A stretch of 64,000 nucleotides of DNA from Nitrosococcus wardiae (GCF_004421105.1 NZ_CP038033.1:1011659-1075658); one strand, 5' to 3'. Counted from the first letter of the stretch, positions 20,557-34,865 are shown. The notes: generated from the letters alone by a model not told the origin. Program-made: numbers and translations.

Positions 20557-23500
20557 ATGTCTAAAGGATTTATTTGGGTCAAGGGAGCCCGGCAGAATAA
20601 TCTGCAGGGGCTCAATCTCAAGTTCCCCCTCAATGAGCTGATTGTGATTACCGGGGTCAGCGGTTCCGGTAAATCCTCCCTGGCCTTCGACACTATTTAT
20701 GCCGAAGGGCAACGGCGCTATGTGGAGACTTTCTCCCCCTACGCCCGTCAGTTTCTCGATCGGATGGACAAGCCCCAGGTGGACCGAATCGAGGGGATTC
20801 CACCGGCCATTGCCATCGATCAGACTAATCCGGTCCGGACTTCCCGCTCCACCGTGGGGACCATGACGGAGTTGAATGATCACCTCAAGCTCCTCTTCGC
20901 CCGGGCGGGGAAACTCTACTGCCAGGGTTGCGGGCAACCGGTGCGGCGGGATACGCCGGATAGCATTTATGACCAGCTTCTCGATCAGGGAATGGGTCTT
21001 CGGGCTTTAATGACTTTTGAGATTGCTGTTCCTCCCAACTTTTCCCCCCAGGAGGTGAAAGAGCAGCTCCTGCGGCAAGGGTATACCCGTTTCCACCACC
21101 AAAATGATCAGGTATTGGAGGTGATTCAGGATCGGCTGCGCTTGGAGCCCAGCCAGCGGGAGCGGATCGTGGAAGCCCTGGAAACGGCCCTCAAATACGG
21201 CCGTGGCCGCCTTGCTGTCTATCCCTTGGATGAGGACCGCCAGCCCCAGCCGCCCTGGCGTTTTTCCTCCGATCTCCACTGTCCCCAGTGTGATCTGGCT
21301 TACCGGGACCCCTTCCCCAACCTGTTTTCCTTTAACTCTCCCTTGGGGGCCTGTGAGACTTGCCGGGGCTTTGGCCGGACCATGGGGATTGACTATGACT
21401 TGGTGGTGCCCGATGACCGTAAAACCCTGGCCGAGGGAGCCATCAAACCTTGGCAGACCGCAAGCTATGAAGAATGTCAGCAGGATCTGATGAGATTTGC
21501 CCGCCCGCGGGGGATTCCCACTCAACGGCCTTGGCGCGAACTCACTTCTGACCAGCAGCGCTGGGTATTAGAAGGAGAGGGAGAGTGGGAAGAAAACAAA
21601 TGGTATGGGGTCCAGCGTTTCTTTGATTGGCTGGAAGGTAAAAGCTACAAAATGCACATTCGGGTGTTGCTGTCCAAATACCGGGCCTATCATCTTTGTC
21701 CCGCCTGCCACGGAGCGCGCCTCAAACCCGAATCCTTGCTGTGGCGGCTGGGAACCAAAGCCGACGCCGATAGGGTGTTGCCGGAAAGGCAACGGTTTAA
21801 GCCCTCAGGAGTCCAGTTTTCCCAACCGCAATTGGCGGCTTTGCCGGGCTTGACCCTCCATGATGTGATGCGGCTTCCCCTGGAGCGCTGCCGGCAATTT
21901 TTTACTCAGCTCACCCTGCCTGCCCCCTTGGACCAGGCCGCCGAATTGCTGCTGGGGGAAATTCGCTCCCGCCTCAATTACCTGGTGGAGGTGGGGCTGG
22001 GCTATCTCACTTTGGACCGGCAATCCCGGACCTTAAGCGGGGGAGAGGTGCAGCGGATCAATTTGACCACCGCCCTGGGCACCTCCCTGGTCAATACCTT
22101 GTTTGTCTTGGATGAGCCGAGCATCGGTTTGCACGCCCGGGACTTGCAGCGGATCATCCGGGTGCTGCAACGGCTGCGGGATGGGGGCAATTCCCTGATT
22201 GTGGTGGAGCACGATCCCCAAGTAATGCTGGCCGCCGACCGGGTGCTGGACTTGGGACCGGGGCCGGGGGAGCGGGGCGGCCAGCGGGTGTTTTTCGGCC
22301 CTCCTCAAGAATTGTTGCACGCCAAGAACTCCCTCACCGCCCAGTATTTGGTGGGCAAAAAGCAGGTGGTGACCGAGCCTAGCCGCGTTGGAAAGCCCCC
22401 GGCCACGGCCTCGATGGAGATTCTGGGGGCCACGGAAAACAATCTCAAAAACATTACGGTCCGTTTTCCTTTGAACCGCCTGGTGTGCGTGACGGGGGTC
22501 AGCGGCTCGGGCAAATCCACCCTGGTTCAAGAGGTCCTATACAAGGGATTGCGGAAACTTAAGGGCAAGCCGGTGGGCATTCCCGGCCGCCATCAGGCCC
22601 TCCAGGGCCATGGGCCGATCCAGGGGGTGGTGCTGGTGGATCAATCTCCCATTGGCAAAACCGCCCGCTCCAATCCGGTCAGCTACGTGGGGGCCTTGGC
22701 GGGTCTGCGCAAAGCCTTTGCCGCCGAGCCCTTAGCCCAGGAGCGGGGCTATAGCGCCGGCACCTTTAGTTTCAACAGCGGCAATGGGCGCTGTCCCACC
22801 TGTGGCGGCAGTGGCTTTGAACAGGTGGAAATGCAGTTTCTCAGCGATGTCTATCTGCGCTGCCTCGATTGCAACGGCCAGCGTTACCGGCCGGAAATCT
22901 TGGAAGTCAAACTGCAACCTTCAGCCCATAGTCCGGGGAAGTCTATTGCTGAGGTGCTGGAGATGACGGTGGCCGAGGCCCTGGAGTTTTTTGCGGATTA
23001 TCCGGAGGTGACACGGGGAATCGAACCCCTTCAGGCGGTAGGGCTCGGTTACATGAAATTGGGCCAGCCGGTGCCCACCTTGAGCGGGGGGGAGGCCCAA
23101 CGGCTGAAATTGGCCGGCCATTTGGCCAAAGGACGGGGACGCAAGGAAGCCCACCGCACCCTATTTTTATTTGATGAACCGACCACCGGGCTGCACTTTG
23201 ATGATATGGCCACTTTGCTCCAGGCCTTCCAGCGTTTGCTGGCGGAAGGTCATTCCCTGGTGGTGATAGAGCACAATCTGGAGGTGATCCAGGCGGCGGA
23301 TTGGGTGATCGATTTGGGCCCTGAAGGCGGTGAGGCCGGGGGCGAAGTGATCGCTGTCGGTTCCCCCCAGGAAGTAGTTCAATTCCAGGGCAGCCATACC
23401 GGCCAAGCCTTACAGGACCATGCCCAGGCCCTGAACTTAATTACTTTGACAACGCCGGTCATTGGCGAAGTCCCTTCGGCCTACGGGGCTGCACCCCAGG

Positions 23501-26118
23501 AGCAGGCAAGAGAGGAAGGGAAGGGGGTTATTGGCATCCATAATGCCCGGGAGCACAATTTAAAGGGCATTGAACTTCAAATCCCCCGGGAGCGGTTCAC
23601 CGTCATTACCGGCATCTCCGGTTCCGGGAAAAGCACGGTGGCCTTCGATATCCTTTTTGCCGAGGGGCAACGGCGCTATTTGGAGTCCCTCAATGCCTAT
23701 GCCCGGCAGTTTGTCCAACCGGCCGCCCGCCCTGATCTGGACGCCATCTTCGGCATTCCCCCCACGGTGGCCATCGAGCAGCGGACCAGCCGGGGGGGAC
23801 TCAAGAGCACAGTGGCCACCCTCACCGAGATTTATCATTTCCTGCGCTTGCTATTCGTTAAACTAGGCCAACAGCATTGCCCCGACTGCGGCATTCCTAT
23901 TGAAGCCCAAACTCTGGAGGCCATCCAGGCCCGGATTCTGCGTAACTACCGGGGCCGCCGCCTGAGTGTATTGGCCCCCCTGGTGGTGGCCCGCAAAGGC
24001 TATTACACGGATCTGGCCAAGTGGGCCGCCGCCAAGGGGTTTACCCATTTGCGGGTGGATGGAATATTGGTCCCGACGGACCCTTGGCCCCGCTTGGATC
24101 GGTTCAAGGAACATTCCATTGAATTGCCGGTAGGGGAGATCAAAGTCACCCCTGGGGAGGAAAAGGTGCTGGGGACGTTATTGGAGCGGGCTTTGAGTCT
24201 GGGCCAGGGAAGGGTGGAAATTCTCCTTCCCAAAAAGGGGGAGAAGACCCTCTACTCTACTAAGCGTTCTTGCCCCAGTTGCAGTCGCAGCTTCGGGGAG
24301 CTGGATCCTCGCCTGTTCTCCTTTAATTCCCCACAGGGTTGGTGCCCCCGCTGCTATGGCACCGGGCAGGTGCTGCCTGGTTTTGATGGGTCGCAAACCG
24401 GGGAGGAAAAGGAATGGGCCGTGGGGGAAGAAAATTCTGCTCGGATTTGCCCCGCCTGCCAGGGGCGGCGCTTACGGCCCGAAGCCCTGGCGGTGTATTT
24501 CCAGGAGCGGAATATTGCCGAATTTACCGAGATGTCGGTAGCAGCGGCAGAGACCACATTCCGGTCCATGGAGCTGCAAGGGCGGGAGGCGGCAATTGCC
24601 CGGGATCTCCTGCCCGAGTTGCGGTCCCGCCTGAAATTTCTTCAAGAGGTGGGGTTGTCTTATTTAACCTTGGATCGGGCCGCCCCGACCCTCAGCGGGG
24701 GGGAGGCTCAGCGCATCCGTTTGGCTTCCCAGCTCGGTTCCAACCTGCGGGGGGTGTGTTATATCCTGGATGAGCCCACCATCGGCCTCCATCCTCGGGA
24801 CAATAAAATGCTCCTCAATACCTTGGGCAAATTGGAAGGCAAGGGCAACACCATTGTGGTGGTGGAGCATGACGAGGACACTATTCGGCGAGCCGAGCAT
24901 GTCATTGACCTGGGACCGGGAGCCGGGGTGAATGGGGGCAGGGTGGTGGCCGCGGGCACGGTGGAGGCGTTGCTCCATCATCCGGAATCGGTTACCGGAC
25001 GTTGTTTGGCCCATCCCTTGCTCCATCCTCTCATGGAAAAGCGGCGCTCTGAGACCGCTGAATGTCAGTTGGAGCTTCAGGGGGCCTCCCTTCATAACTT
25101 GAAACATCTGGATCTCTGCCTGCCCTTGGGTCGGCTAGTAGGAGTGACCGGGGTCAGCGGCAGCGGTAAGAGTACCCTGGTGCGGCAGGTGATCCATGGG
25201 AATCTACAACGGTTGTTAGGTGCCAAGGGGAAGACCCAGGGCAAGAATGCTGCTTTCCAGGGGTGTGCAGGGATCCGGGGCTGGGAGGCCATCCAGCGGG
25301 TGCTTGAAGTGGATCAAACCCCCATTGGCAAAACGCCCCGTTCTTGTCCGGCCACCTATGTGGGCTTTTGGGACTCTATCCGGCGTTTGTTTGCCGAGAC
25401 GCCGGAAGCCCGAATCCGGGGTTATGGGCCAGGTCGATTTTCCTTTAATACCAAAGAAGGCCGCTGTCCGGAATGTGAGGGCCAGGGAGTCAAGAAGATT
25501 GAGATGAGTTTTCTGCCCAATGTCACCGTTCCCTGTGAGGTCTGCCATGGAGCTCGCTTTACCCCCGAAACCTTAATGATCCGCTACAAGGATAAGCATA
25601 TTGGTGAGATCCTGGCCATGAGCGTAGATGAGGCGACCGAGTTTTTCTCCGCCCATGTCCGAATTCATCGGCCTTTGCAGCTGCTACAAGCGGTGGGGTT
25701 GGGGTATCTCAGCGTCGGCCAACCCAGTCCTACTTTAAGCGGGGGCGAAGCCCAGCGGATCAAACTAGTGACGGAGCTGGCCAAGGCCCGCTCTACTCCC
25801 GGCCGTGCCGGAAATCACCATACCCTGTATCTCTTGGATGAGCCGACGATTGGCCTTCATATGGCGGATGTGGAGAAACTTATCCGGGTCCTCCACCAAC
25901 TGGTGGAAGTGGGCAATACCGTCATGGTCATTGAGCATAATCTGGATATTATCGCTGAGGCGGACTGGCTCCTTGACCTGGGCCCGGAAGGGGGCGAGGG
26001 CGGGGGTCATGTTGTCGCCCAAGGAACGCCGGAAACCGTTGCCCAAGTCAAAAAAGGTTCCCATACGGCCAAGTTTCTGGCTGGCTTTCTGCGGGAAAGG
26101 CGCCTAAAAATTAATTAA
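20557..26118 (+). CDS. uvrA: Tandem-fused UvrA-like ATPase with four ABC modules
   Basis: At 1853 residues this is twice the usual UvrA (about 940). It is a head-to-tail fusion of two UvrA-like proteins. Unit 1: Walker A GVSGSGKSS (33-41), zinc cysteines CPQC..CETC, signature LSGGEVQRI, Walker B VLDEPSIGLH, then GVSGSGKST (647), CPTCGGSGFEQVEM..CLDC, LSGGEAQRLKLA, LFDEPTTGLH. Unit 2: GISGSGKST (1019), CPSC..CPRC, LSGGEAQRIRLA, ILDEPTIGLH, then GVSGSGKST (1532), CPECEGQGVKKIEM..CEVC, LSGGEAQRIKL, LLDEPTIGLH. All four ATP sites look intact. UvrA normally dimerises to scan DNA for damage and load UvrB; this chain could be a covalent dimer. A normal-length uvrA is presumably elsewhere. It is followed after 26 bases by the DUF427 gene. 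Confidence 0.93.
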   Translation: MSKGFIWVKGARQNNLQGLNLKFPLNELIVITGVSGSGKSSLAFDTIYAEGQRRYVETFSPYARQFLDRMDKPQVDRIEGIPPAIAIDQTNPVRTSRSTVGTMTELNDHLKLLFARAGKLYCQGCGQPVRRDTPDSIYDQLLDQGMGLRALMTFEIAVPPNFSPQEVKEQLLRQGYTRFHHQNDQVLEVIQDRLRLEPSQRERIVEALETALKYGRGRLAVYPLDEDRQPQPPWRFSSDLHCPQCDLAYRDPFPNLFSFNSPLGACETCRGFGRTMGIDYDLVVPDDRKTLAEGAIKPWQTASYEECQQDLMRFARPRGIPTQRPWRELTSDQQRWVLEGEGEWEENKWYGVQRFFDWLEGKSYKMHIRVLLSKYRAYHLCPACHGARLKPESLLWRLGTKADADRVLPERQRFKPSGVQFSQPQLAALPGLTLHDVMRLPLERCRQFFTQLTLPAPLDQAAELLLGEIRSRLNYLVEVGLGYLTLDRQSRTLSGGEVQRINLTTALGTSLVNTLFVLDEPSIGLHARDLQRIIRVLQRLRDGGNSLIVVEHDPQVMLAADRVLDLGPGPGERGGQRVFFGPPQELLHAKNSLTAQYLVGKKQVVTEPSRVGKPPATASMEILGATENNLKNITVRFPLNRLVCVTGVSGSGKSTLVQEVLYKGLRKLKGKPVGIPGRHQALQGHGPIQGVVLVDQSPIGKTARSNPVSYVGALAGLRKAFAAEPLAQERGYSAGTFSFNSGNGRCPTCGGSGFEQVEMQFLSDVYLRCLDCNGQRYRPEILEVKLQPSAHSPGKSIAEVLEMTVAEALEFFADYPEVTRGIEPLQAVGLGYMKLGQPVPTLSGGEAQRLKLAGHLAKGRGRKEAHRTLFLFDEPTTGLHFDDMATLLQAFQRLLAEGHSLVVIEHNLEVIQAADWVIDLGPEGGEAGGEVIAVGSPQEVVQFQGSHTGQALQDHAQALNLITLTTPVIGEVPSAYGAAPQEQAREEGKGVIGIHNAREHNLKGIELQIPRERFTVITGISGSGKSTVAFDILFAEGQRRYLESLNAYARQFVQPAARPDLDAIFGIPPTVAIEQRTSRGGLKSTVATLTEIYHFLRLLFVKLGQQHCPDCGIPIEAQTLEAIQARILRNYRGRRLSVLAPLVVARKGYYTDLAKWAAAKGFTHLRVDGILVPTDPWPRLDRFKEHSIELPVGEIKVTPGEEKVLGTLLERALSLGQGRVEILLPKKGEKTLYSTKRSCPSCSRSFGELDPRLFSFNSPQGWCPRCYGTGQVLPGFDGSQTGEEKEWAVGEENSARICPACQGRRLRPEALAVYFQERNIAEFTEMSVAAAETTFRSMELQGREAAIARDLLPELRSRLKFLQEVGLSYLTLDRAAPTLSGGEAQRIRLASQLGSNLRGVCYILDEPTIGLHPRDNKMLLNTLGKLEGKGNTIVVVEHDEDTIRRAEHVIDLGPGAGVNGGRVVAAGTVEALLHHPESVTGRCLAHPLLHPLMEKRRSETAECQLELQGASLHNLKHLDLCLPLGRLVGVTGVSGSGKSTLVRQVIHGNLQRLLGAKGKTQGKNAAFQGCAGIRGWEAIQRVLEVDQTPIGKTPRSCPATYVGFWDSIRRLFAETPEARIRGYGPGRFSFNTKEGRCPECEGQGVKKIEMSFLPNVTVPCEVCHGARFTPETLMIRYKDKHIGEILAMSVDEATEFFSAHVRIHRPLQLLQAVGLGYLSVGQPSPTLSGGEAQRIKLVTELAKARSTPGRAGNHHTLYLLDEPTIGLHMADVEKLIRVLHQLVEVGNTVMVIEHNLDIIAEADWLLDLGPEGGEGGGHVVAQGTPETVAQVKKGSHTAKFLAGFLRERRLKIN

Positions 26119-27638: not shown

Positions 27639-27885
27639 GCGGATGTGGAAAAACTCATCCGGGTCCTCCATCAACTGGTGGAAGTGGGCAATACCGTCAT
27701 GGTCATTGAGCACAATCTGGACATTATCGCTGAGGCGGACTGGCTCCTTGACCGGGGTCCAGAAGGGGGCGACAGCGGGGGGGCAGTTTGTCGCCCAAGG
27801 AACGCCCGAGGCCGTTGTCCGAGTTAAAAAAGGCTCCCCTACGGCCTAGTTTTTAGCCCGTTTTTTGCAAAGGCACAATCCAATA
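27637..27885 (+). pseudogene. Duplicated uvrA 3' end
   Basis: Bases 27639 onward read [44 protein letters not shown], corresponding to bases 25863-26090 of the tandem uvrA at about 90 % nucleotide identity. A frameshift after the GPEGG stretch and a changed ending destroy it. It lies 1.5 kb downstream of the true 3' end, in the same orientation, with DUF427 and Uma2 between. Confidence 0.9.
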
Positions 27886-27895
27886 GGCTAAAGCA

Positions 27896-29164
27896 TTATC
27901 TAAACGGTATGCCAAACCTAATGGGAAGGGCAAAGTTTATAAAATAATCCGGGGCGTCATCTGTTAAGCCGATCCCGCCCGATATAGACAACAAAATCCC
28001 GCGACCCAGCACGGATGAGGCTCCAAAAATAAAGGAGCTACTCACTTGATTACTACCGGGAATATCGCCGCCGTTGACCTCTAACTCCTGAGAGAAGACC
28101 TGTTGTAGCTCTAGGCGTAGAGACGTGGCTGGACTGGCAGCTAAAAGCGCGCCGATTGAGAAACCAAACTTGTCGCCTGGATCGATGTTGTCCTTTTCGA
28201 AAGAAGATTCATAGAAGAAGTTGCCGGTAAAGGCCAGTGGATCTTGGCGTTTAAGGGCCGTAAGGGATCCCCGGATCTCATGGAAGCCGCCTCCCAGTGC
28301 AACACCGTTGCTAAACCGTTGGCTTGTGTCCGTATCCCAAGTGACTCGGGCTATCAAGTCTGGTAACCAACCCCGTTCACGGAACACCGTCTTAGCGACA
28401 CCGACGGTGATGTCCCCTATGGATGAGCCTAGATCGTCCGTTTCCCTAAATGAAAACTGCCCTGCCGGTTGTACCAAAGTTTGGTCCACCACCCGGGCAG
28501 GAAGACTGAGTTCTAGTTGGGACTCGAAAGGCAAGCCAAAGCGGGTAAAGAAACCCGCATCAAATTCGTTGCGGCGGAGCTCCGCGTTTCTTGTTAATAC
28601 TTGACCACCCTCTCCGAGGACAAGTGTGGGTGAGAATTGCTCCCGCCGACTATAGACCACAAAAGGCTGGACTTCCATGAGGCCAACTGGCAAGAGCAAA
28701 GCACCTACCTGGGTTAAAGTCCTTTCTAATGCTCGCTCGGCTGCATCCTCGTCCACCTCGAATGTGCCAGGGGCAGATGATTTCGCCTTTTTCTTTGGGG
28801 GTTTTTCCTGGGTTTGGGCCTGTTGTATGGGATTCTTTGGTTGGGCTGATTGGGTTGCCGGAACGGCGGTTTTGGGCAGGGGATGCCTCGGAGGCTCCTT
28901 CATCTGAGGTGATGGAGAGGATGGCGGTGTTGTGCCGACAAGATGCTCAAGTTGCTCTACCCGTTTCTGGAGATCTTCAATCAGCGCATCGCGCTCTGCA
29001 ATTTTCCGGTCCCGCTTTTCAAGTTTTTCCAGCAATTGCTGGGTAATTTCCGGCGTTTCTTGAGCGTATCCTAGCTGATTACTAACAATAAAGAGGCTTG
29101 TTACCAGAAATGCAGTCAATAACCCGCTTTTATTTTGCAGGTTTAAGAATGCTGCCAACTTCAT
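27896..29164 (-). CDS. fapF: FapF-like outer-membrane amyloid exporter
   Basis: This 422-residue protein starts at ATG 29164 after AGGGGGAATA (a longer frame from 29227 overlaps fapD). It has a signal peptide (about 1-33, ..SNQLGYAQ), a periplasmic coiled coil (about 38-72: QLLEKLEKRDRKIAERDALI), a Pro/Lys/Gln-rich linker (about 75-130), the conserved helix AERALERTLTQVGALLLP, and a C-terminal region of alternating strands for a 12-strand barrel ending FGIPFR. This order is that of FapF of Pseudomonas, the trimeric pore that exports Fap amyloid subunits. It is 40 bases downstream of fapD in the same direction. Without tests, a generic outer-membrane transporter is the alternative. Confidence 0.82.
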   Translation of the reverse strand: MKLAAFLNLQNKSGLLTAFLVTSLFIVSNQLGYAQETPEITQQLLEKLEKRDRKIAERDALIEDLQKRVEQLEHLVGTTPPSSPSPQMKEPPRHPLPKTAVPATQSAQPKNPIQQAQTQEKPPKKKAKSSAPGTFEVDEDAAERALERTLTQVGALLLPVGLMEVQPFVVYSRREQFSPTLVLGEGGQVLTRNAELRRNEFDAGFFTRFGLPFESQLELSLPARVVDQTLVQPAGQFSFRETDDLGSSIGDITVGVAKTVFRERGWLPDLIARVTWDTDTSQRFSNGVALGGGFHEIRGSLTALKRQDPLAFTGNFFYESSFEKDNIDPGDKFGFSIGALLAASPATSLRLELQQVFSQELEVNGGDIPGSNQVSSSFIFGASSVLGRGILLSISGGIGLTDDAPDYFINFALPIRFGIPFR

Positions 29165-29204
29165 TATTCCCCCTAAATTATTATGGTTATTGTAATTGCG
29201 TCCA

Positions 29205-29837
29205 CTATCGCAACATGACAAAATCACTCGTTTTGGGTATTAGGCGATTAGGCGGTTCTATCCCATCCTGTCGCGCGATTAAAAATCCCACTTTACCAAA
29301 TTGCGGATATTCAATCCAAAATTGTTTGAACTTTTTTACAAGCATAGTACGGTTGCCCCATGCTGGGTCCGCCAGCAGCACCCGGTTACCCTGCATACCT
29401 CGGAAAATAACAAAGTGGTTGTAACCATGGGTGTTAATGGGAACTAATATCGGCGCCCGCTCGATAAGATCTTCTAATGCTAGCTTGCCATAGCCGATTC
29501 CCTTATACCCTCTCGAGTCCACAAAACGTTTAAGATCCAAGAGGGAAAAGCCCTCCCGCATTTGGACAATTGCTGGATTCTTGAGATATTCCTCCCGCGT
29601 CATGAGAGCTTTGGCAACCTCTTTCTCGGTCACAGAATCCCCATGTTGATAATTCAATAATGTTGCTAAAGCTGCTGCTCCGCAACTGAGATCCCATTGT
29701 TGTAAAATAACGTTTTCGCGACGCATTTCTAAAAGAGACTTGACCTGCCGGCCCTCTGCTGTCTCAGCAAAATTTGTTAGTAGCAAGACTATTAAGAGTA
29801 CAGCATAGATAGGTGAGCACCATTGTTTACCAATCAT
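29205..29837 (-). CDS. fapD: FapD-like periplasmic C39 cysteine protease
   Basis: This 210-residue C39-type papain-like protease starts at ATG 29837 (MIGKQWCSPIYAVLLIVLLL), giving a clear signal or anchor helix; longer frames reach 29936. Catalytic set: oxyanion Gln (ILQQWDLSCG), Cys52 (LSCGAAALATLLNYQHGD), His141 (INTHGYNHFVIF) and Asp157 (VLLADPAWG). C39 domains cut after double-glycine leaders; in Fap systems FapD is a stand-alone periplasmic version. The three secreted proteins upstream on the same strand each carry a VTAG/VTAA motif just after the Sec signal, a plausible substrate. It is separated from them by a terminator at 30164-30201, so exporter genes are probably expressed at a lower level. 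Confidence 0.85.
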   Translation of the reverse strand: MIGKQWCSPIYAVLLIVLLLTNFAETAEGRQVKSLLEMRRENVILQQWDLSCGAAALATLLNYQHGDSVTEKEVAKALMTREEYLKNPAIVQMREGFSLLDLKRFVDSRGYKGIGYGKLALEDLIERAPILVPINTHGYNHFVIFRGMQGNRVLLADPAWGNRTMLVKKFKQFWIEYPQFGKVGFLIARQDGIEPPNRLIPKTSDFVMLR

Positions 29838-30118
29838 AGCTGATGTTTGAAATAAAGTATTAAAAGGAGTGATTAATGTAAGCTTATACATAGTGGGCTT
29901 ATCTTTATTAGGGATAGGAAGATAAATTCTGGCCAAGGAGAATATTAAGTAATTGCATTACTTCATAAGTTTAAAGCGTATTACAAAATTTTCTATGGGA
30001 AGAAGCGGGGGTTGGCTACAGTTAACGACTCTGAGGGAGGGGGTAGGTGATGATGTTTGGCTCTTTTCATTTACAAAAGTATTCATAAAAGGAAATAGTT
30101 TTATGCTATGCTAAAAAT

Positions 30119-30146
30119 GCATGGGGCGTAATCCTGTTTTCCTAGT
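30119..30146. repeat. 28-base direct repeat, unit 1
   Basis: gcatggggcgtaatcctgtt followed by ttcctagt; the same 28 bases occur at 30192-30219, where they overlap the terminator stem. It looks like a small local duplication of the terminator region. Confidence 0.8.
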
Positions 30147-30163
30147 TTTATACTTGCTATAAA

Positions 30164-30201
30164 ACAAAGAAAAGCGCCCCATGCGCTTTTCGCATGGGGC
30201 G
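30164..30201 (-). terminator. Strong terminator after the amyloid-like subunit genes
   Basis: On the minus strand CGCCCCATGCG, loop AAAAG, CGCATGGGGCG, then CTTTTCTTTG. It lies 23-60 bases past the stop of the last subunit gene and before fapD. Confidence 0.85.
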
Positions 30202-30223
30202 TAATCCTGTTTTCCTAGTAATT

Positions 30224-30586
30224 TTAGTGCAACTGGGCCGTTGCTTGTGAGGCACTAGCGGCTGCAGCACCCGTAAAATTCAGTCCTCCAGAGGTGCCGG
30301 TTAATACGGATTGACCAATGCTATCATTGCGTGATGCGGCGGTTGCAAACGCAGGGGAATTGATAGTGTCAACCTGAGCATCACTCTGTGATAAGGTTTG
30401 AGAGAGTACAGTGCCAGCACCTGCTCCTTCTGCAATTGCAGCAGCCTGACCTACGAGCAGGACAATAGCGCCAGCGGTTACGTTGTCCATTTGGACATCG
30501 GTTAGTTTGACGGGCTCTTTAGCATTGCTAGTGCCGGCAAATGCGAGCATTAGGGCGCACGTCATAATGGAAAAAATATTTTTCAT
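30224..30586 (-). CDS. Secreted VTAG-motif protein 3 (putative Fap-like subunit)
   Basis: This 120-residue protein is preceded by AAGGAGATCGAATC. A Sec signal (MKNIFSIMTCALMLAFAGTSNA) is followed at once by KEPVKLTDVQMDNVTAGA. The rest is low in charge and rich in Ala, Ser, Gln, Thr and Gly, with LSQTLSQSDAQVDTINSPAF and ending ASASQATAQLH. The composition suits a beta-rich, self-assembling or surface protein. The QMD-x-VTAG motif resembles the end of a double-glycine leader, cut by C39 proteases. It shares the motif and a TQSD/SQSD box with two upstream paralogues. No database family recognised. Confidence 0.8.
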   Translation of the reverse strand: MKNIFSIMTCALMLAFAGTSNAKEPVKLTDVQMDNVTAGAIVLLVGQAAAIAEGAGAGTVLSQTLSQSDAQVDTINSPAFATAASRNDSIGQSVLTGTSGGLNFTGAAAASASQATAQLH

Positions 30587-30640
30587 GATTCGATCTCCTT
30601 TCCAATAAGTTGATTTTTTTGCATCTTCGTTGTCATGAAT

Positions 30641-30928
30641 TTAGAACGCGCTTGCAGCAGACTGGGCTGATGAACTCGATTGAGTCAAAACGAGCTGCCC
30701 TCCTTGTGTTGGGAAAATATCAAGAACTACAACGTCGCTCTGAGTCAGAGTCGTGGTGGCTGAAAAGATGACACCGGTTGCGAAAGCATTGGCAATGGCA
30801 TCGGCTGTACCAGCAGCCGTGACGGCATCCATTTCGGTTTCGCTTAGCATGACAGGTTCATCTGCTACAGCAACGCTTGTCATGGCAAGAAATGCTCCCG
30901 TAGCAAGAATGCTCGATAATTTTTTCAT
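30641..30928 (-). CDS. Secreted VTAG-motif protein 2 (putative Fap-like subunit)
   Basis: This 95-residue protein starts at ATG 30928, right after AAGGAGGAAGGATCA; a longer frame to 31003 has no ribosome site. Signal peptide MKKLSSILATGAFLAMTSVAVA, then DEPVMLSETEMDAVTAAG in place of VTAG. The body is Ala/Ser/Thr-rich (FATGVIFSATTTLTQSDVVV) and ends QSSSSAQSAASAF. It shares layout and the TQSD box with its neighbours, 54 bases upstream of protein 3. Probably the same function. Confidence 0.8.
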   Translation of the reverse strand: MKKLSSILATGAFLAMTSVAVADEPVMLSETEMDAVTAAGTADAIANAFATGVIFSATTTLTQSDVVVLDIFPTQGGQLVLTQSSSSAQSAASAF

Positions 30929-31065
30929 TGATCCTTCCTCCTTAGCGAGATTACTATTCTTAAGTTTCATGAAAAACCTCTCCCCTCTGAATTTATTGTT
31001 CATGAGGTTTGAGATATTTTCAGCCTGCAGAAAATCTGCAAGCTGAAAAATCTTAAATTTCTTAA

Positions 31066-31530
31066 CTAACGCCCAGGTAGATTTGTTGAAAGTGGACTGA
31101 CAAAAGAGCCAACTTTCACCACTGAAGCTGCATTAATCTCAACCCCAAGCACTTTTGAGTGAATGTTGATTTCGTGTACTTGGACATTCGTCCCAGGGAC
31201 ATCAGCAGTTGGGATAACAGTTGTATCCGTGGATGAACCTTCCCCTACTGCAACAGCTCCTGCACTTCCGCCAGCAATACCTATATAGCTCCTGAGGGCA
31301 GGATTATCTGCGTCTGACTGTGTAGCTGTTGCCGAACCAAATGTAGAGGTAAAAGCAAGATGGCTTGAGGTCGCATCTGCATTAACAATGACATCAGCAT
31401 TAGTTCCTGCTGTGACATAATCCATTTGGGCTGTAGATAAAATCAAAGGACCTTGGCTAGTGGATTCTGCCACAGCAGTAGATACTGTTATACAAAAAAA
31501 ACTTAATGCGTAGAAAACATTTTTCATCAT
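31066..31530 (-). CDS. Secreted VTAG-motif protein 1 (putative Fap-like subunit)
   Basis: This 154-residue protein starts at ATG 31530 (GAAGAGG lies 6-12 bases upstream; the ORF can start at 31545). Signal peptide MMKNVFYALSFFCITVSTAVA, then ESTSQGPLILSTAQMDYVTAGT. The mature part (NADVIVNADATSSHLAFTSTF) has the motif TATQSDADNPAL, a Gly/Ala/Ser-rich middle, and a C-terminal half with alternating hydrophobic residues (VHEINIHSKVLGVEINAASV). It is the longest and first of the three paralogues. Upstream, 586 AT-rich bases separate it from a divergent Ser-rich protein gene. Confidence 0.78.
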   Translation of the reverse strand: MMKNVFYALSFFCITVSTAVAESTSQGPLILSTAQMDYVTAGTNADVIVNADATSSHLAFTSTFGSATATQSDADNPALRSYIGIAGGSAGAVAVGEGSSTDTTVIPTADVPGTNVQVHEINIHSKVLGVEINAASVVKVGSFVSPLSTNLPGR

Positions 31531-33194: not shown

Positions 33195-34865
33195 TTATGC
33201 GAGCCTTTTTGGGATGTTTTTAGGAGTGTCTGTGAATAACATTCTCATTTCCATAAAGATCAAATATATAAACCCTAAGCTAAATAGCAGTAAGGTAGTA
33301 GGCTCGGGAACCGTTGATGGTTCTGGTCCGCTGAACGAGAGTATTGCACTTACTGGCGTATTAAAATTCTGATTCCAAATATCGGAACCTATTTTTGTTT
33401 GATCAAAACCTAAGAACAATTCTGGTAAAAGCATAGAATCAAAAGTGATTTCTTTAAAATAATCTTGAAGCCAAGAGGAAAGATTTAGATTAGCTTCTGA
33501 TATATTTAGAATTGGCGCGAACATATTAAAGCCTTGAGATTGGAATATCTCATCTTCGAAAACTAATGTCGGCAAACTAGCCCTATAAAGCACATTCCCC
33601 ATCCTATCTACAAGCCTTATTTCTGTACCTGAAAAATATTCACGTCCATCTAAACTCGCAAAATGAATTAAAGGATCTATCTCAATATAACCTCCATTTA
33701 ATGGATCCTTTTTATATTTCTTTGTTATGTTTATGGGTAATCTATCAAAATATAATATATTTTCTGTTTTATCCCAATGCATTTGGAATTCTTCAGATTC
33801 GCCAACAATTTTGTGGCCTATTGATTGGCCCACTTGAAGTGCGGCTCTAGGAGGGGCTTCATAGGATAATTCAATATGTGTGTTTTTTAAATTTAATATT
33901 AGGTTTTGTTGGGGGGAAAGAAAATCATCTAATAATGGAACTGAAACACTGAGGTTATCTGGATTTCTTTTTAATATTAATTGGTTATCGTCTCTGTCAA
34001 TATTTGTATTGAACCAGTTCTCTATTATTTTAGAAGTAGGGTCTTCAAAATATATCGTTGATTCTTTTCCGTTTTCCAAAAAAGAGATAAATCCAATAGT
34101 CGTTGTTTTTGTTTGTTCTCCAGACTGCTGTACAACTTCAACAGTGTCTCGCATATAAGAGAGAGCAGAAGTAGGTTCTGATTTTATTTTTAATCTATCA
34201 ATGTCCCAATTTAGGTTAAGGAAAGGGCTAAAAGATTTGAATGGCAGAAAAGTATTCGTAGTGAAAGCATTTTGCATCAAAAAATTTGAGACTAAACCCT
34301 CACTAATTGTAGCAGATCTTGAAAATAATGGTTTTAGTGAAGAACTTTCTGCAGTTGTACGGTGTTCGCTTTGAAAAGTTGCCACTGTAACTGGATTATT
34401 GAAGTTTACATTGTTTGAGATATTTGCATCTAGGTTTAAAAACACCCTGCCAGAAGAAAAATGTGAATTTATAATTTCCCCTGAATCTGCAAAATTTATC
34501 TCCGACTTAGAATAACCGGGATAAGTGCTAACGGCATTTGTATAAGAGGCTGTCCCTGCGTTCAATAGGGGGGATGAATTGGGTGGAAAATAAATGCCAT
34601 TTTCTATGTTGAGATTACCATCACTATTTCTAATTATATAAGGTCCACCCCCTATAAGCTGAGCAGTTATTGTGGTTTTGCTTTCAGTTTCTGCGCTAGA
34701 AATTAATACCGCGTTAGTTGTTTTAGGTGCTCCTAGAATTACTAATGCAATATTTAATATAAAAATATTTTTATAAATTAAATACTGTATGTTCCTATGG
34801 AAAAGGAGACGTAAAGTTGTAAATAGGATGGTTGTTAAGATTGTGCTCTTTGTTAAAGTGCTCAT
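33195..34865 (-). CDS. PEP-CTERM exported protein, unknown function
   Basis: This 556-residue exported protein has an N-terminal hydrophobic segment (IFILNIALVILGAPKTTNAVLI) that can act as a signal, though the preceding 40 residues are unusually long, so a later start is possible. The C-terminus has the exosortase sorting signal: VPEPTTLLLFSLGFIYLIFM, a membrane helix, then a tail with a basic end (KNIPKRLA), longer than usual. The body is rich in Asn, Ser and Thr with beta-type patterning and no recognised domain. An EpsH-type exosortase would process it at the inner membrane. The gene is AT-rich compared with neighbours and flanked by inverted repeat D copies, which hints at transfer. Confidence 0.82.
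   Translation of the reverse strand: MSTLTKSTILTTILFTTLRLLFHRNIQYLIYKNIFILNIALVILGAPKTTNAVLISSAETESKTTITAQLIGGGPYIIRNSDGNLNIENGIYFPPNSSPLLNAGTASYTNAVSTYPGYSKSEINFADSGEIINSHFSSGRVFLNLDANISNNVNFNNPVTVATFQSEHRTTAESSSLKPLFSRSATISEGLVSNFLMQNAFTTNTFLPFKSFSPFLNLNWDIDRLKIKSEPTSALSYMRDTVEVVQQSGEQTKTTTIGFISFLENGKESTIYFEDPTSKIIENWFNTNIDRDDNQLILKRNPDNLSVSVPLLDDFLSPQQNLILNLKNTHIELSYEAPPRAALQVGQSIGHKIVGESEEFQMHWDKTENILYFDRLPINITKKYKKDPLNGGYIEIDPLIHFASLDGREYFSGTEIRLVDRMGNVLYRASLPTLVFEDEIFQSQGFNMFAPILNISEANLNLSSWLQDYFKEITFDSMLLPELFLGFDQTKIGSDIWNQNFNTPVSAILSFSGPEPSTVPEPTTLLLFSLGFIYLIFMEMRMLFTDTPKNIPKRLA

Follow-up and report, generated by a model that had tools for sequence, protein, structure and literature searches.

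The window, which is the whole 64,000-nucleotide stretch of Nitrosococcus wardiae DNA that was analysed, belongs to a genome of 4,022,640 bases in one contig and contains, at positions 27896-31530, a module whose elements are all read from the minus strand in the order substrate 3, substrate 2, substrate 1, terminator, C39 peptidase and FapF-like channel. Substrate 3 (31066..31530, or to 31545; 154 aa) consists of a Sec signal, a double-glycine-type leader and an Ala/Ser/Thr/Val-rich body predicted to be of beta structure, and is supported by its open reading frame and by homologues beside C39 genes in other loci. Substrate 2 (30641..30928; 95 aa) has a Sec signal, a leader and a 56-aa body; its reading frame is open from 31003, the signal peptide is obtained with the ATG at 30928, and 10 homologues lie beside C39 genes. 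Substrate 1 (30224..30586; 120 aa) is an open reading frame with a Sec signal, a leader and a fast-evolving body. A strong intrinsic terminator (30175..30201) with an 11-bp stem followed by CTTTTCTTTG separates the substrate genes from the enzyme genes (fold z-score -5.1 for 30100-30225); this placement suggests many substrates per exporter, and we infer that substrate expression is probably high and machinery expression low. The periplasmic C39 peptidase (29205..29891; 228 aa, with a possible alternative start at 29834) and the outer-membrane channel (27896..29164; 422 aa) complete the module. No ABC transporter is found among the neighbouring genes, and the other C39 matches of the genome are about 1 Mb away. 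The locus is present in one congener and absent from two smaller congeners.

The three substrates and the two enzymes

In each substrate the Sec signal is followed by a 12-residue segment, namely LTDVQMDNVTAG in substrate 1 (30470..30505), LSETEMDAVTAA in substrate 2 (30812..30847, followed by G) and LSTAQMDYVTAG in substrate 3 (31405..31440), that aligns residue for residue with the double-glycine leader LSxxELxxIxGG. The sequences after the Sec signal read KEPVK-LTDVQMDNVTAG, DEPVM-LSETEMDAVTAA(G) and ...GPLI-LSTAQMDYVTAG, with signal peptides and Sec cleavage sites judged by simple rules rather than by SignalP. Among the secreted small proteins encoded in the 4.02-Mb genome, codon strings for MDxVTA occur in these three only, the other three matches lying in unrelated frames, which indicates that the motif is not due to chance. 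The leaders are conserved in the congener, that of substrate 3 being the same at 12 of 12 residues, whereas the bodies of two substrates have diverged; substrate 2 is 81% identical to its counterpart. The dN/dS ratios against the congener are 0.15 for the peptidase, 0.14 for the channel and at most 0.28 for the leaders (which, at 12 codons, offer very few sites), and 0.83, 0.66 and 0.26 for the bodies of substrates 1, 2 and 3, respectively; within substrate 1, the body at 0.83 contrasts with the signal at 0.08 and the leader at 0.28. A processing signal would be expected to stay constant while its cargo changes, as the leaders do here.

The bodies form one cluster and cross-match in the congener, as expected of paralogues. 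They carry little charge (K+R 0-4, D+E 3-9), have a composition dominated by Ala, Ser, Thr and Gly, and reach 112 aa in length. No family of Pfam or NCBIfam, Fap repeats included, matches the substrates above cut-off, and no Fap family matches them at all (FapA, FapB, FapC and FapE are absent from the locus). An AlphaFold2 model of substrate 3 predicts a body of six long beta strands, mostly at pLDDT of about 95, and a helix at leader residues 33-40, as would be expected of a C39 leader, with confidence lower than that of the body. A fold search with this model finds no solved relative in the PDB (best E 0.02, probability 0.18), and no fold name is assigned.

The peptidase has an N-terminal hydrophobic segment that we read as a Sec signal, matches the Pfam C39 family (PF03412, 8.9e-15), and retains the catalytic residues Q64, C70, H159 and D175, which are invariant in 27 aligned relatives. 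Its best family match is FilB (NF050078, 2.4e-31; 109 bits against a cut-off of 475), followed by FapD (NF058616, 1.4e-24; 86.6 bits against a cut-off of 330, where a Pseudomonas-type FapD reaches 420), both far under the curated cut-offs. A profile search of the PDB gives the LahT protease domain as best match (6mpz, 1.5e-18) and also finds PCAT1. In a tree of 74 peptidases, the clade that contains the window protein and the other VTAG loci (support 99/96), the Fap-operon clade (99/93) and the Fil-locus clade (100/100) are all separate; the peptidase is a FapD/FilB relative in its own clade, outside the curated FapD family.

The channel matches the FapF model only weakly (NF058560, 6.6e-6; 25.2 bits against a cut-off of 700) and also matches PF13557. 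An AlphaFold2 model based on 59 homologues (pLDDT 86.6) predicts, after the signal peptide, a coiled coil at 38-77, a disordered linker, a plug helix at 139-153 and a 12-stranded barrel, and the top 18 matches of this model to the PDB with Foldseek are all FapF (5o67, 5.5e-18), the next fold being COG4313 (4rl8). By predicted fold the channel is thus FapF, a relative of the curated FapF family and not a member of it.

These results bear on an original prediction, made from the sequence alone, of three paralogous small secreted proteins with a Sec signal followed by a QMD/EMD-x-VTAG or VTAA motif, which holds by reading frames, motif scan and body cluster. Its periplasmic C39 protease with full triad holds for the catalytic residues, and its coiled-coil/barrel exporter of FapF type holds by fold; the comparison of both enzymes with Fap models that it proposed yields matches to FapD and FapF under the cut-offs, so the names stand as relatives only. 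The claim that the bodies do not resemble standard FapB/FapC repeats also holds, with no family match and no GN-rich repeats. The TQSD box that it reported is common to the three window paralogues and is not conserved across the wider family, and was dropped as a family signature.

Spread of the leader among related loci

When the four closest C39 sequences were used to scan genome contigs, 80 named loci were obtained, in Methylobacter, Nitrosomonas, Nitrosospira, Nitrococcus, Noviherbaspirillum, Herbaspirillum, Thiocapsa, Rhodospirillales, Geminicoccaceae, Desulfobulbaceae and others; some derive from metagenome bins and may be misassigned, including one labelled as an archaeon (L143). The main search pattern, a Sec-like N-terminus followed by [ML]Dx[VIL][TS][AG][AG], gives 193 matches (189 distinct) in 63 loci, and the reversed motif gives none. 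At positions that the pattern leaves free, the 189 distinct substrates have Leu at -12 (187), Thr or Ser at -11 (142) and Gln or Glu at -8 (160). The variant MDxVA[AG]G, a VAAG subclass missed by the strict pattern, is found at nine of 17 apparently empty loci and also at L064. With both patterns together, substrates occur at 72 of the 80 loci, and a FapF homologue at 75. No recognised substrate is found at the remaining eight loci; three of these (L112, L118 and L158) start at a contig edge, unlike L084, L141 and L145. Visible AxA sites most often precede Leu-12 by 3-5 residues, and 16 of 17 family leaders with Ala at -1 continue with Gly. This one leader type is combined with bodies of 57 different clusters, which lack GN-rich repeats.

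The register of these leaders equals the published rule for C39 recognition, which comprises Leu-12, Glu-8, Leu-7, Val-4 and small residues at -2 and -1, with pockets for Leu-12, Leu-7 and Val-4 seen in a C39-leader co-crystal (PMC6363468). The double-leader reading of the original prediction therefore holds beyond the window, and the search that it proposed for VTAG proteins next to fapD/fapF in other genomes finds such substrates at 72 of 80 loci. The case that would have refuted it, substrates routinely occurring without fapD/fapF, did not occur in any of three genome-wide tests based on codon patterns. No orphan MDxVTAG protein was detected by codon pattern in 274 genomes of the class, where secreted matches appear in three genomes only (the host and two others), in each case no more than about 2.3 kb from the closest C39 genes, and a fourth genome (G247) has the VAAG form; none was detected in 397 genomes of the phylum; and of the 31 matches in 20 whole genomes from which loci had been drawn, 30 lie in a C39 locus, the remaining one being a 20-aa chance frame.

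Comparison with Fap, Fil and other C39 systems

The module resembles Pseudomonas Fap in its periplasmic C39 peptidase with intact catalytic residues, in a channel of FapF fold that comprises the coiled coil, linker, plug helix and 12-stranded barrel, and in a post-Sec leader that FapE carries in the same register; unlike Fap, it lacks FapA, FapB, FapC and FapE, has several small paralogous substrates each with a leader, and encodes enzymes below the family cut-offs, with the C39 in a separate clade. Fil (FilA/FilB/FilC, named a 'putative pilus system' in NCBIfam) provides the best family match of the peptidase and has FilA-like proteins with a post-Sec leader such as LDDSALADVTGQ, but the window C39 scores 109 against 475 bits, the Fil peptidases form their own clade and the Fil leader ends in GQ; no description of the Fil proteins was found in the literature searched, in which most subscription journals are missing. 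The Neisseria nap island likewise combines GG-leader peptides, a separate C39 (NapP) and a FapF homologue (NapF), with cleavage proposed to be periplasmic (PMC11798529), but Nap peptides are short, cationic and linked to autolysis. PCAT/AMS transporters with double-glycine peptides (LahT, ComA, PCAT1) share the peptidase fold and the leader rule (L-12, E/Q-8, L/M-7, V/I-4, small -2/-1); their peptidase, however, is a domain fused to an ABC transporter, and cleavage is cytosolic, whereas in the window both peptidase and leader lie behind Sec. No prior description of a Sec signal combined with a GG leader was found in the literature searched, which left out most subscription journals, so an earlier description is not excluded.

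A bona fide Fap operon, L211, in which FapB, FapC, FapD, FapE and FapF all pass their cut-offs, has a FapE that reads FKPIE-LKDSEMAELRGR^YVMPG (^ marks the proposed cut), a post-Sec leader in the same register. This FapE element is present in 14 of 14 Fap loci; among 12 shorter Fap-like loci, 11 have the canonical RGG^F at the matching place. When the loose rule was applied equally to 20 control regions of 20 kb, 5 contained any such reading frame. FilA-like proteins read LDDSALADVTGQ^AG and similar in five of nine Fil loci. More broadly, 186 Sec-like reading frames lie within 2.5 kb of 47 FapD-family loci that fall outside the clade, and 46 of them score at least 6 of 7 leader positions; in random control regions, taken from these genomes or from neighbours of them, 12 of 310 do so (Fisher p 5.5e-12). 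A search for the Fap operon on plasmids returned one distant match only.

The leader that FapE shares points to RG[R/K]^[Y/F] as the site of its cleavage by FapD. In published work, FapD is periplasmic, FapC secretion depends on the catalytic Cys of FapD, and FapE is the only Fap protein with complete N-terminal processing, its N-terminal peptides being missing in mass spectrometry (PMC5557850); the FapE leader fits both this gap and the essential Cys. The substrate of FapD was called undetermined in 2018, with FapE suspected (PMC6173800), and a 2025 review states that FapD is thought to process FapE and FapF (PMC12822426). The argument for FapD is less strong than that for the VTAG proteins because FapE has Arg or Lys at -1, which is unusual for a C39 site.

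A putative two-leader secretion route

Sequence and comparison establish the gene content, the leader register, the intact catalytic residues, the FapF fold and the strict linkage of the locus. We consider it likely that these constitute a small two-leader secretion module in which signal peptidase, periplasmic C39 peptidase and FapF-type barrel act in that order. Each substrate would cross the inner membrane via Sec and lose its first signal to signal peptidase I, leaving an N-terminal extension of roughly 15-17 residues (for example, KEPVKLTDVQMDNVTAG) as a double-glycine-type leader helix; the periplasmic C39 peptidase would grip this helix at Leu-12, Met/Leu-7 and Val/Ile-4 and cut after the Ala-Gly pair; and the freed body, largely uncharged and rich in Ala, Ser, Thr and Gly, would exit via the plugged barrel. 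The order put forward in the original prediction is supported to this extent, with cleavage, its exact position and its precedence over export all remaining inferred. The barrel as exit rests on homology and linkage only, and there are no cleavage, secretion or expression data for the locus. Given the low charge and the Ala/Ser/Thr/Gly-rich composition of the bodies, our best guess is that the mature proteins are surface or extracellular matrix proteins, an inference that we hold no more firmly than its opposite.

The locus might instead be a diverged fap operon, with the peptidase as FapD, the barrel as FapF and the small proteins as degenerate FapB/FapC amyloid subunits. Both enzymes match the FapD and FapF models, FapF is the closest fold and FapE has a similar leader, but the scores (86.6 against 330 and 25 against 700) are far under the cut-offs, FapA, FapB, FapC and FapE have no match, the C39 clade stands apart from the Fap clade with support of 99/96, and the bodies fall into many clusters devoid of GN-rich repeats, so that we regard this reading as unlikely. 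We think it equally improbable that the second leader stays uncut and serves as a tag for docking or targeting, bound to the C39 domain or to the coiled coil of FapF, in the manner of the catalytically dead C39-like domains of RTX export. C39-like domains can indeed serve as tethers in type I secretion, and cleavage does not follow from linkage and conservation by themselves; against this, the catalytic residues are invariant in all 27 peptidases, the small residues at -2 and -1 (A/G then G/A) are kept though a docking helix does not need them, and the FapD Cys is required for secretion (PMC5557850).

Least plausible, in our judgement, is that the peptidase targets something else, such as the barrel, while the small proteins stay periplasmic and the barrel is a COG4313-type small-molecule channel. 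The PF13557 match, the rank of 4rl8 directly after FapF and the proposal that FapD cleaves FapF (PMC5557850) speak for it; the 18 best fold matches to FapF, the coiled coil and plug helix, and the linkage of substrate, peptidase and barrel in nearly all loci speak against it. The main alternative to a matrix or surface role keeps the same processing route and makes the mature products peptides that resemble bacteriocins or autolysins, the role put forward for the Nap peptides of gonococci together with NapP and NapF. This remains possible: the leader type is that of class II bacteriocins, the bodies evolve fast, and GG peptides occur alongside a C39 and a FapF homologue in the nap island (PMC11798529). 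On the other hand, the window bodies are not cationic and reach 112 aa, substrate 3 is predicted to be a folded beta protein, and no immunity-like gene was identified in the module.

The two-leader module, which remains our preferred reading, can be taken further. By a modest margin we favour the joint claim that all periplasmic FapD-family C39 peptidases follow one general substrate rule, a Sec signal plus a double-glycine leader, that a route of Sec, periplasmic C39 and FapF barrel exists for diverse cargo in Alpha-, Beta-, Gamma- and some Deltaproteobacteria, and that the target of FapD in Pseudomonas is FapE at the site given above. FapD is essential for Fap amyloid secretion, and the window leaders together with their FapE counterpart provide a precise, mutable site for the putative cleavage. 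Pairs of FapD and FapF have been noted without known cargo in five additional phyla (PMC6173800); the leaders described here indicate that the cargo of such pairs can include small-protein families that are not amyloid subunits, and a recognisable leader, as the entry ticket to the route, allows their cargo to be discovered genome-wide.

Substrate subclasses and C39 genes in other loci

Eight loci encoding relatives of the C39 peptidase (L064, L138, L143, L149, L150, L153, L155 and L156) contain a subclass of substrates with the leader LSxAQMDxVA[AG]G, the bodies of which, as far as these loci are concerned, carry a conserved cysteine segment of the FVCPVI/L type. Oxalobacteraceae loci (L111, L102, L124, L097 and L100) encode tandem substrate paralogues, up to six, with a short body of the QFNxSPVTVVQxN type. 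The peptidase sequence of the Methylobacter locus L086 that was placed in the tree falls in the clade of peptidases from shorter Fap-like loci; therefore, C39 genes of two kinds appear to be present at this locus. A single genome, G046, which contains locus L082, encodes seven C39 homologues that are related to the family of the window peptidase.

Neighbouring genes in the window

A 1853-aa ORF (20557-26118) includes two UvrA units in tandem, and a copy of approximately 216 bp of its 3' end (27640-27850) is separated from it by two genes, one for a DUF427 protein and the other for a Uma2-type nuclease. In an alignment with the congener, a genome of the same genus with the same locus, the congener stretch matches only one copy of this repeat within the part compared. 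The secreted protein encoded at 33195-34865 (556 aa), which matches PEP-CTERM weakly, is 71% identical to its congener counterpart.

Repeat around the terminator

Two copies of a 26-bp sequence (30120-30145 and 30193-30218), its only exact occurrences in the genome, flank the terminator that separates substrate 1 from the gene for the peptidase. The repeat permits two mutually exclusive hairpins, so that it may function as an attenuator.
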